Virus record (IMG/VR): IMGVR_UViG_3300025132_000337
Span: 1-22,534 of that record
DNA length: 22,534 bases
Source of the DNA: a virus
Reading direction: 5' to 3' (one strand)
The notes below the pieces were generated by a model that was given only the letters and a program-made list of their open reading frames with translations, did not search any database and was not told the DNA's origin. This document shows positions 13,882 through 15,771 of the stretch, in pieces (the stretch's first letter is position 1; each line of letters begins with the position of its first letter). Position numbers and translations under genes: made by a program.

Positions 13882-13911
13882 AAAAAGGGCTCAAAAGAGC
13901 CCTTTTTTTTT
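13882..13911 (+). terminator. Intrinsic terminator after major capsid gene
   Basis: GGGCTC (13887-13892), loop AAAA and GAGCCC (13897-13902) form a perfect stem, extended by A5/T5 pairing to 11 bp, followed by nine T residues. It is a textbook rho-independent terminator on the + strand that separates the capsid block from the next cassette. Confidence 0.93.
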
Positions 13912-13963
13912 GACTTTTTTTAAATAATACGACATATCAGTGACTTACAATGTGTAATATATG

Positions 13964-14003
13964 TGTAAAAAGTTGTACATTTATGTAAAAAGATGTATAT
14001 TAC
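13964..14003 (+). repeat. Tandem 20-base direct repeat overlapping a promoter
   Basis: Two adjacent 20-base units (13964-13983 and 13984-14003) match at 16 of 20 positions; both begin TGTAAAAAG and continue WTGTAYATT. ATGTGTAA also occurs just upstream at 13950-13957 and 13961-13968. The repeats overlap the predicted -35 and -10 boxes, as expected for an operator or activator site, but no regulator is known. Confidence 0.65.
13973..14001 (+). promoter_or_regulatory. Predicted sigma70-type promoter for the two-gene cassette
   Basis: TTGTAC at 13973-13978 and TATATT at 13996-14001 are 17 bases apart, the ideal spacing for a sigma70 promoter. The expected transcription start is near 14008, just upstream of the AGGAG site and ATG 14044, and just downstream of a strong terminator. 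The base composition is AT-rich, so chance matches are possible, but the placement is right. Confidence 0.6.
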
Positions 14004-14043
14004 TTATATGGGAAATAAATTAAATAACAAAAAAGGAGAAAAT

Positions 14044-14265
14044 ATGACAATTAAGTTAGTGCGAATTAAAAATGAAACATTTACTGATGATCCTGATAAA
14101 AGACTTTATGTTTATGGTCAATACACAATTAGAAATGATTGTGACTGGTATGGTTGGAAAGTTTTTGATGGTGACAAACAAATTAATACCAAGGGTTATT
14201 GTTTCAAAACATCTAAAGATTTCTTAAAAAATTATATTAATCAAAATTCTCAGGAGGTAGCGTAA
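14044..14265 (+). CDS. Small protein of unknown function, first gene of cassette
   Basis: 73 residues, not recognised. I chose ATG 14044 because AGGAG lies 5 bases upstream. The in-frame ATG at 13993 overlaps the predicted promoter and has no ribosome site. The sequence (IKLVRIKNETFTDDPDKRLYVYGQYTIRNDCDWYGWKVFDG...GYCFKTSKDFLKNYI) suggests a small beta-sheet domain with aromatic residues and two cysteines, then a helix. There is no signal peptide. It is coupled to the next gene through an overlapping TAATG. A small binding or regulatory protein is possible; nothing shows which. Confidence 0.78.
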   Translation: MTIKLVRIKNETFTDDPDKRLYVYGQYTIRNDCDWYGWKVFDGDKQINTKGYCFKTSKDFLKNYINQNSQEVA

Positions 14266-15122
14266 TGTTTTATTTAAAACACGATTTAAACCCTGTAGAA
14301 GAAAATAGCACCTGTACCACTGGTGCTGTTATCTTTGACAACAAAGGTTGTTCTACATCAGGTGGTCATTACAATGGCAACAAATGGAAAGATCACTGGC
14401 AAGTAACTGAATCTTGTTATCACAAAGTCATTGAGTTTGGTTCTATCATAGACAAAAAAGTTCATGTGGTTGTTACATGCAACAGGTGTCAAGGCACTGG
14501 TCAAACATCAGAGTGGATGGGCAAAGAACAAGTCTTCTTGCCTGATGGCAGAACCTCCATACAAAGCGTGTACGCAATGGTTGATTGTCACAAATGTGAA
14601 GGTACTGGTAAGTTTGAGAAAGATGTTGCTGTCATTGGTCAGGTTGCAAAAGACAACGAACAAGCAAGAAGAGATGAAAAAGCAAGAATCAAACAAGAAA
14701 AATATGAGGCTTGGGCAAAAAAAGTTGCTGAAAGAGAATACAATTATGCTCTTATTTGTTGGGCAAATGATATCAAAAGATACGCAAAAAAATATGACAT
14801 TTTGCAATCACCAAAATTACCTACTGATAAAAGAACCACTATTGTTGGTAAAGTTATTAGTAAAAAAGAGGTTGATGGTTATTTTAGCTACTCACCTACT
14901 ACATTCAAAATGTTGGTTGAGCTTGATACAGGACAAAAAGTCTTTGGTACTTGCATCAGAGTCAATGAAAAAGGTAGTGGTGGCTACAAATGGTATGTCG
15001 AAAAAGGCGACATCGTAAAGTTTGATGCTCAATTACAAGAGCCAAAAGATTGTGATGGTTCTTTTTACTTTTACAAAAGACCAACCAAATGCGAATTAGT
15101 AAAGAGTGCACCACCTGTATGA
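14265..15122 (+). CDS. DnaJ-type zinc-finger protein without J domain
   Basis: 285 residues. Two CxxCxGxG motifs, CNRCQGTG (72-79) and CHKCEGTG (108-115), would bind one zinc ion as in the cysteine-rich domain of DnaJ. No J domain or HPD motif is present, so it should not stimulate Hsp70 by itself. A long charged helix follows (128-175). The C-terminal part (190-280, GKVISKKEVDGYFSY, MLVELDTGQKVFGT, GDIVKFDAQL, FYFYKRPTKCELV) looks like a small beta-barrel of OB-fold type. I recall this end pattern from zinc-finger phage proteins, but it is unverified. A strong AGGAGG site precedes the ATG, and the start overlaps the previous stop. Nucleic-acid or protein binding is inferred. It is non-structural in appearance. 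Confidence 0.85.
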   Translation: MFYLKHDLNPVEENSTCTTGAVIFDNKGCSTSGGHYNGNKWKDHWQVTESCYHKVIEFGSIIDKKVHVVVTCNRCQGTGQTSEWMGKEQVFLPDGRTSIQSVYAMVDCHKCEGTGKFEKDVAVIGQVAKDNEQARRDEKARIKQEKYEAWAKKVAEREYNYALICWANDIKRYAKKYDILQSPKLPTDKRTTIVGKVISKKEVDGYFSYSPTTFKMLVELDTGQKVFGTCIRVNEKGSGGYKWYVEKGDIVKFDAQLQEPKDCDGSFYFYKRPTKCELVKSAPPV

Positions 15123-15152
15123 ACCCATAAAACTTAAAACATTCTATTTGCT

Positions 15153-15180
15153 AAATCATGCTCCAAGGAGTATGATTTTT
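15153..15180 (+). terminator. Intrinsic terminator closing the two-gene cassette
   Basis: AAATCATGCTCC (15153-15164) pairs with GGAGTATGATTT (15167-15178) over 12 bp with one G-T pair, ending in five T residues (15176-15180). It lies 30 bases after the zinc-finger gene and would stop cassette transcription. Its stem is less GC-rich than the terminator after the capsid gene, so it may be partial. Confidence 0.75.
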
Positions 15181-15199
15181 AGTATCTAGGATATTTTAA

Positions 15200-15259
15200 C
15201 TTGTTCTACAGACTGACCTAGCAGACAAGCCAAGACAGTAGAACTTATTTCCTTGGAGG
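15200..15259 (+). promoter_or_regulatory. Structured leader before the tail/decoration operon
   Basis: GTTCTAC (15203-15209) can pair with GTAGAAC (15238-15244) around a 28-base loop. In addition CTTGTT (15200-15205) can pair with GACAAG (15224-15229), and CCAAG (15230-15234) with CTTGG (15252-15256), which overlaps the GGAGG ribosome site of the gene starting at 15265. These alternatives could form a switch. No clear sigma70 promoter is seen in 15181-15264, so how the next operon is transcribed is unclear. Confidence 0.4.
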
Positions 15260-15264
15260 AAATT

Positions 15265-15771
15265 ATGGCTAAATCAACTTTTTCAGGTCCAGTCAAATCA
15301 TTGGCAGGATTTATTTCAGCAGGTAACGCTAATGTCGTTAGCTTAACTGCCGATACTACTTTAACAGTAGCATCACATGCAGGTAAGGTTCTTGTATGTA
15401 ACGATGCTGATGGTAAATTTACACTGCCTTCAATCGTAACAACTGCTCCTGATAGTAATGACGACCCAAATCAATTAAACAACCTTGGTGCTACTTTTAC
15501 ATTTATCGTAGTAACAGCGGCAACTGATATGGACATTCTTACCGATGGCACAGATAAGTTTGTTGGTGGGTTATACACAGGTGTAGATGATGCAACAGGT
15601 AAAACTTTTATTTCTGCTTCAGCTAACGATGTAATCACTATGAATGGAACAACTAAAGGTGGACTTGTAGGTAGTATTGTAAAATGTACTGCTATGGCAA
15701 CTGCTAAATATGCTGTAGAAGGCATTATTTTAGGTTCAGGAACCTTAGTCACACCATTTGCTAATAGTTAA
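15265..15771 (+). CDS. Probable head decoration/structural protein
   Basis: 168 residues. I start at ATG 15265, which has GGAGG 5 bases upstream. A longer TTG start at 15253 would overlap that ribosome site. The protein is beta-rich and Thr/Ala/Gly-rich, opening MAKSTFSGPVKSLAGFISAGNANVV-type sequence, then TTLTVASHAGKVLVCNDADGKFTLP, FTFIVVTAATDMDILTDGTDKFVG and GSIVKCTAMATAKYAVEGII. I recall this family as a frequent unnamed structural protein in uncultured marine phages. A decoration or capsid-fibre role is inferred. It is the first gene of the dense tail operon that continues to the end of the window. Confidence 0.75.
   Translation: MAKSTFSGPVKSLAGFISAGNANVVSLTADTTLTVASHAGKVLVCNDADGKFTLPSIVTTAPDSNDDPNQLNNLGATFTFIVVTAATDMDILTDGTDKFVGGLYTGVDDATGKTFISASANDVITMNGTTKGGLVGSIVKCTAMATAKYAVEGIILGSGTLVTPFANS

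Follow-up and report, generated by a model that had tools for sequence, protein, structure and literature searches.

A probable accessory island, independently expressed and exchanged gene by gene, at the capsid–cement junction of a marine phage

Although mosaicism is familiar in phages, it is mostly unexplained how they acquire or swap small accessory genes without disrupting expression. This question is raised by a two-gene cassette between the capsid and cement genes of IMGVR_UViG_3300025132_000337, a virus record of 22,534 nt, the whole of which is termed the window here; the region examined comprises positions 13,882–15,180 and their flanks. Comparison with related loci indicates that this region is probably an island of accessory genes that is expressed independently and exchanges its genes one by one. 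The features concerned are as follows.

13882–13911, plus strand: predicted Rho-independent terminator closing the capsid operon (hairpin 13882–13907, 11-bp stem, T-run)
13964–14001, plus strand: tandem repeat over the promoter (20-bp unit ×1.9, 88% matches)
13973–14001, plus strand: predicted cassette promoter TTGTAC-17-TATATT (TTGTAC 13973–13978, 17-nt spacer, TATATT 13996–14001)
14002–14043, plus strand: cassette 5′ UTR with Shine-Dalgarno (SD) sequence AGGAG at 14034–14038
14044–14265, plus strand: orfA, 73 aa, exchangeable first-slot gene
14253–14267, plus strand: linker GGAGGTAGCGTAATG, 15 nt, containing SD, stop TAA and start ATG; putative exchange joint
14265–15122, plus strand: orfB, 285 aa, terminal-slot gene
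14814–15113, plus strand: orfB OB-fold domain (aa 184–283), predicted structure match
15119–15130, plus strand: 3′ flank ATGAACCCATAA, common to cassettes with different last genes; remnant joint, M-N-P-stop
15148–15181, plus strand: hairpin terminator (15155–15176 and T-run) with overlapping predicted cement/tail promoter TTGCTA-17-TATGAT
15203–15248, plus strand: conserved structured RNA leader of the cement gene, seen by covariation, bordering the cassette and outside it

The capsid protein is 58–66% identical to those of DSL-LC04, 023Pt_psg01, Pelagibacter phages HTVC023P and HTVC027P, and Roseobacter phages CRP-901 and CRP-902; this marine phage is probably lytic and related to the HTVC023P/CRP-901/Pam1 group. 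In named phages, the region has no DNA match. A preliminary description had held that the genes around the cassette are structural and its own products are not. This is supported for the capsid gene (PF25209 by family search), the gene 3′ of the cassette (a cement protein, by its annotated counterpart in DSL-LC04) and the 16192 gene (an SU10/Pam1-type adaptor, PF24175), and orfA and orfB have no significant structural-family match (phrog_31826 at E 0.1 only). Elsewhere in the window, a gene at 456–1577, upstream of the lysis/terminase block, includes a very long low-complexity stretch of Asn, Thr and Ser (NTNTN repeats).

Gene content at the site varies among relatives. Of 43 distinct loci with 78–100% capsid identity, about 13 have nothing at the site, seven have cargo that is minus-strand or mixed in orientation, and plus-strand genes, mostly different from those of the window, occupy 23. 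The orfA–orfB pair occurs in the window and probably in one truncated contig (L209) only; a pair present in all relatives, which would have counted against the earlier view of the cassette as accessory cargo, is not what the 43 loci show. The capsid–cement gap is 105–155 bp, with no annotated gene, in DSL-LC04, CRP-901, Pag-Yong1 and HTVC023P, and one or two small genes are present there in HTVC027P and 023Pt_psg01. The G+C content of the cassette is 34.9% versus 36.7% for the window, which places it near the 20th percentile of sliding windows. In more distant relatives, a recurrent cargo of the same site is a short protein with a C.GrCsT...C.GCGR...IRDW motif (L046, L051, L057, L061, L068–L071, L074, L077 and L078), which resembles, by eye only, a DUF1289-type zinc protein. 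In L021, L032, L035, L102 and L195, the 15787 and 16192 genes are separated by a second variable stretch of 2–3 kb; it encodes small basic proteins and MKGTKYMAKGG-repeat proteins and is absent from the window.

The terminator after the capsid gene is strong, as had been described (−16.1 kcal/mol, z −4.6), and in the relatives inspected a terminator-like hairpin likewise lies 3′ of the capsid stop codon. The tandem repeat noticed earlier is present and overlaps the promoter; it is conserved in the nearest relatives only (the second copy is degenerate in L249 and missing from L012 and L028) and is therefore probably incidental to the promoter. The TTGTAC-17-TATATT element itself is sigma-70-like. 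Within the single genome, such matches are no more frequent than chance would give (11 promoter-like sites versus 15.7 expected), and it is comparison across relatives that makes this promoter credible. When the pattern TTG[CT]AN-(16-18)-TAnnnT was scanned after the capsid terminator, with the expectation taken from shuffles, it was present in 22 of the 43 loci (1.36 expected), all of them plus-strand cassettes, and in no empty locus. Moreover, 5/7 inverted cassettes have a TTGCAC-16-TATAAT promoter at their far end, on the minus strand. On this distribution, promoter and cargo occur together.

The 5′ UTR is nearly invariant among leader-bearing contigs despite the differing first gene; leader identity before unrelated first genes is 98–100% in the main leader group and 92% for L086. 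The leaders of L322, L344 and L349 are hybrids, in which the promoter half of one variant and the 5′ UTR half of the other are joined to the MLNI gene, suggesting that exchange also takes place within the leader. A longer orfA reading frame from 13993 is unlikely, as its start would lie inside the −10 element.

The second terminator is likewise found (−15.1 kcal/mol, z −5.0), and is unlisted by a simple terminator scan. What had been missed is that its hairpin overlaps a promoter (TTGCTA 15148–15153, 17-nt spacer, TATGAT 15171–15176). In cassette-bearing relatives, and likewise in L006, a locus with an empty site, TTGCTA-17-TATGAT lies 86–90 bp upstream of the cement gene, and some promoter match is present in 15/38 cement upstream regions (3.5 expected). 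Downstream, the cement leader RNA is supported by 19 loci including L220 and L221 (91% of cells paired, 72% when shuffled; 50 double changes, 14 when shuffled; covariation 0.62 versus 0.24). It has no Rfam match above threshold, and translational control of the cement protein is possible. A pseudoknot in this leader was considered and set aside, as it fits some lineages and fails others. The cement gene itself (15265–15771 in the window; L083, L085 and L213) has 168-, 194- and 293-aa versions in otherwise near-identical phages, which have mainly an N-terminal MA.STF.GPV motif in common.

From these elements, we infer that capsid transcription would stop at the first terminator, that the host-type sigma-70 promoter would drive a short message, of two genes here, and that this message would end at the hairpin in the spacer and −10 of the second promoter. 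Because the hairpin occupies those positions, the cement/tail transcript would begin just past the stop. orfA and orfB share one base in TAATG, which agrees with the tight coupling described previously, and cassette genes would be translationally coupled because the near-identical linker is an SD sequence, a stop and a start at once. When phages infect the same cell, homologous recombination at their shared stretches (leader, linkers and 3′ flank) would exchange single genes and leave expression intact.

Gene-by-gene exchange is strongly suggested by comparison of the arrangements behind the leader. Two leader-pattern scans yielded 29 stretches, in which arrangements were read by walking the genes behind the leader. 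One leader, in two variants, precedes 15 arrangements built from 12 gene families in about 29 contigs and the window. Genes are named after their first protein residues, orfA being MTIK and orfB being MFYL285.

Arrangements 1–3: MTIK-orfB (window); MTIK-MTKY-MKNQ; MSNQ-MTKY-orfB
Arrangements 4–6: MSNQ-MENL-MSKS246; MSKT-MRSL-orfB; MSKT-MRSL-MKNQ
Arrangements 7–9: MSKT-MKNQ; MENL-orfB; MENL-METL-MSKS246
Arrangements 10–12: MENF-MENL-MSKS246; MLNI-MENL-MKNQ; MLNI-MENL-MSKS246
Arrangements 13–15: MLNI-MKNQ; MRSL-MKNQ; MRSL-MSKS246

The orfA slot holds other genes in L002, L083, L207, L211 and L249, and the terminal protein of the catalogued complete arrays is always one of three versions. Between the genes, 18 of the 20 kinds of internal adjacency have a linker near GGAGGTAGCGTAATG with a one-base overlap; the remaining two are accounted for by the rare genes MENF99 and METL82. 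Within 2 mismatches, the linker is present at 18/25 non-redundant cassette TAATG joints versus 0/67 other TAATG joints of the same loci. Joints without it include those from orfB to the 3′ flank in the window, from METL82 to MSKS246, and from a 173-aa gene to a deoxynucleotidase gene in L102. At the 3′ end, different last genes enter one flank, TATGAACCCATAA, in several cases after a geneless copy of the linker.

Sequence identity changes abruptly at these joints. In most pairs of arrays sharing the upstream gene, identity is 93–100% over 150 bp before the linker, 94–100% in the linker and 25–36% downstream; pairs sharing the downstream gene give the mirror image, typically at 97–100%. A few swap pairs compare diverged subfamilies, and identity there is lower on both sides. 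For example, the MTKY gene is 100% identical upstream of the linker and is followed by different genes, and orfB is 98–100% identical behind different upstream genes, with identity of about 30% beyond the linker.

The linker might instead be kept for translation only, as a start-associated sequence, with the mosaicism resulting from ordinary recombination and selection for intact genes. It does contain an SD sequence, a stop and a start, and a similar mycobacteriophage motif has been read as translational (PMC3203893). In an IMG/VR scan with a 14-mer of the linker, 107 of 128 occurrences among the matches listed are at gene joints, as this explanation would predict; the scan is not counted as evidence for exchange, because any SD-stop-start word sits at joints. 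However, conservation extends to the bases that separate SD and stop, unlike at other joints in the same genomes (0/67); at the 3′ end, the linker is retained ahead of a stub of three codons; and identity switches at the linker on either side. A purely translational role is thus possible but rather unlikely, and exchange at the linker is preferred. A 15-bp linker by itself offers little length for homologous recombination, so that longer flanking sequences may take part in exchange. The recombinase families ERF, RecT and YqaJ were absent from 14 records of relatives, which counts against recombination of this kind. As a separate observation, the 14-mer GAGGTAGCGTAATG is flanked by open frames of about 300 and 285 codons in many marine contigs among the matches listed (L088, L089, L092, L103, L104, L127, L138, L140 and others), perhaps representing one conserved gene pair.

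The same gene families are also present in unrelated phages. L307, L309 and L311–L314 have no homologue of the structural genes of this phage, yet they contain MKNQ at about 90% identity, together with the same linker. At the MKNQ site of L307 and L311–L314, another terminal gene is present in L238 and L242. In the unrelated phage L309, the leader is 84% identical to that of the window over 87 bp. A second terminal-slot gene has 78–82% DNA identity between L250, which belongs to this capsid family, and the unrelated L242, L246 and L248.

The cassette products themselves give no match above threshold in PADLOC, Pfam or NCBIfam. orfA has no family or named-phage match, its known relatives being within this phage group only. 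orfB includes CxxCxGTG motifs at aa 72–79 and 108–115, which resemble DnaJ-like zinc knuckles below threshold: the DnaJ central zinc domain (PF00684) scores 14.9 bits versus a cut-off of 32.7, with two CxxCxGxG motifs of four. Identification of orfB as NCBIfam Lar or DnaJ was rejected, the scores being far under the cut-off and probably due to zinc knuckles, as was a weak PADLOC PDC-M01B match to the same part (E 0.013).

The AlphaFold2 model of orfB, from a shallow alignment, is poor for residues 1–117, where confidence is too low for structural reading, and better for residues 118–285, with pLDDT >70 for most of aa 184–283. The latter domain matches the archaeal RPA domain 3dm3_A (VIA Z 9.7, rmsd 3.2, 86 aa), with which tRNA-synthetase OB domains tie, and BFVD structural neighbours of the model include proteins named ssDNA-binding. 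With its predicted C-terminal OB fold, orfB probably binds nucleic acid. The alternative terminal protein MKNQ297 has an OB-like fold at its C-terminal end (Z 9.5 to RecG residues 160–247, low-confidence model), and MSKS246 and orfB have a common C-terminal sequence motif. On this basis, the last slot would hold an OB-fold protein whose N-terminal part differs from version to version. The C-terminal domain of orfB has 229 candidate viral relatives; bacterial genomes contain five distant OB-domain matches and no relative of the MKNQ297 gene.

In known anti-defence islands, small ORFans change fast and have a host-type promoter of their own. The island resembles them in this and could be a counter-defence or host-takeover locus, in which the OB protein would be incidental. 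Against this, PADLOC gives no notable match and no named anti-defence family exceeds threshold. In addition, more distant relatives have an NT5C-type deoxynucleotidase (PF06941, 33.8 bits versus a cut-off of 24.8) in their cassettes, which suggests metabolic cargo in some of them. A counter-defence or host-takeover locus of this kind is rather unlikely. In the preferred reading, the small partner proteins of the accessory island perhaps modulate the host.

The preliminary description had gone further and likened the cassette to lambdoid morons. Its own promoter and its position between head and tail blocks hold, as does accessory cargo in general; the lambdoid label is not supported. A classical moron would be a fixed recent acquisition, expressed from the prophage for the benefit of the host, and the separate promoter and terminators and the insertion between genes adjacent in relatives would fit. 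However, a search of 20 related records, the majority incomplete, gave no integrase (Phage_integrase), and CRP-901-type phages are described as strictly lytic (PMC10149686). The G+C content is ordinary, and a combinatorial array reshuffled gene by gene takes the place of one insert. This origin is accordingly improbable.

A bolder version of exchange, which we would credit with little likelihood, is that the island is an exchange platform common to unrelated marine phages: single genes would be swapped into a fixed promoter/terminator frame with a common SD-stop-start linker, and the terminal OB-fold protein would be a single-strand annealing factor promoting its own shuffling. It is very improbable that the products are ejected virion proteins, made late by read-through from the capsid operon: the position between capsid and cement genes would suit them, but the strong terminator, a promoter conserved with the cassette only, opposite-strand cassettes and the same genes at a non-capsid site in unrelated phages all speak against it. 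Least probable are assembly chimeras joined at the common leader or linkers, since, although these are metagenome contigs with a repeated short sequence and some arrangements are known from a single contig, four arrangements each recur, on three to six contigs that come from different samples, and slot order is consistent.

An island of this kind would be informative in several respects. The role of the linker in exchange is directly testable, because joints, regulatory frame, gene pool and empty site are all visible in near-identical phages. A simple motif and a leader could offer a route to accessory genes, possibly for host takeover or counter-defence, in abundant marine phages where homology fails. 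Swaps of one gene at a time at a short repeated joint suggest natural mix-and-match gene trading between viruses.

The island acts like morons, PeSL modules and start-associated sequences (SAS), and each of these has a tested feature that is absent here. Lambdoid morons, as defined in PMC4378225, PMC1524935 and PMC7067206, are similar in being accessory genes inserted between genes adjacent in relatives and in having their own promoter and terminator, seen here at the sequence level. Unlike them, the island has several genes swapped singly at a repeated linker, no G+C anomaly and no sign of lysogeny. The lambda ninR region is a chain of small accessory genes with overlapping stop and start codons; its sequence and position differ from those of the island. 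PeSLs are reportedly the subject of work by Arbiol in 2010 and Comeau in 2014. As described in PMC4503421 and PMC3950731, they are composite promoter-terminator motifs of T4-like phages. Promoter/stem-loop composites likewise stand at the borders of the shuffled region here (13882–14001 and 15148–15181), but the composite is not repeated at high density between modules: one terminator/promoter unit lies on each side, with the 15-nt linker between genes. Furthermore, one promoter unit serves the whole array, the site is in the late region of a podovirus-like phage, and the element is sigma-70-like.

Auxiliary gene transfers of HTVC023P-type pelagiphages involve, according to PMC9599517, multigene cargo common to several viral families. 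The phages are related to this one and the cargo is similarly shared across viral families; a term search of that text gave no account of this site, the linker or promoter-bounded shuffling. Finally, SAS of cluster K mycobacteriophages (consensus GGGATAGGAGCCC) are spread over non-structural genes (PMC3203893). Like the linker, they are short, conserved, asymmetric SD-containing sequences located just before the starts of unrelated gene families. SAS are not confined to one exchange site, whereas the linker here, GGAGGTAGCGTAATG rather than GGGATAGGAGCCC, includes both stop and start and marks the swap boundaries.
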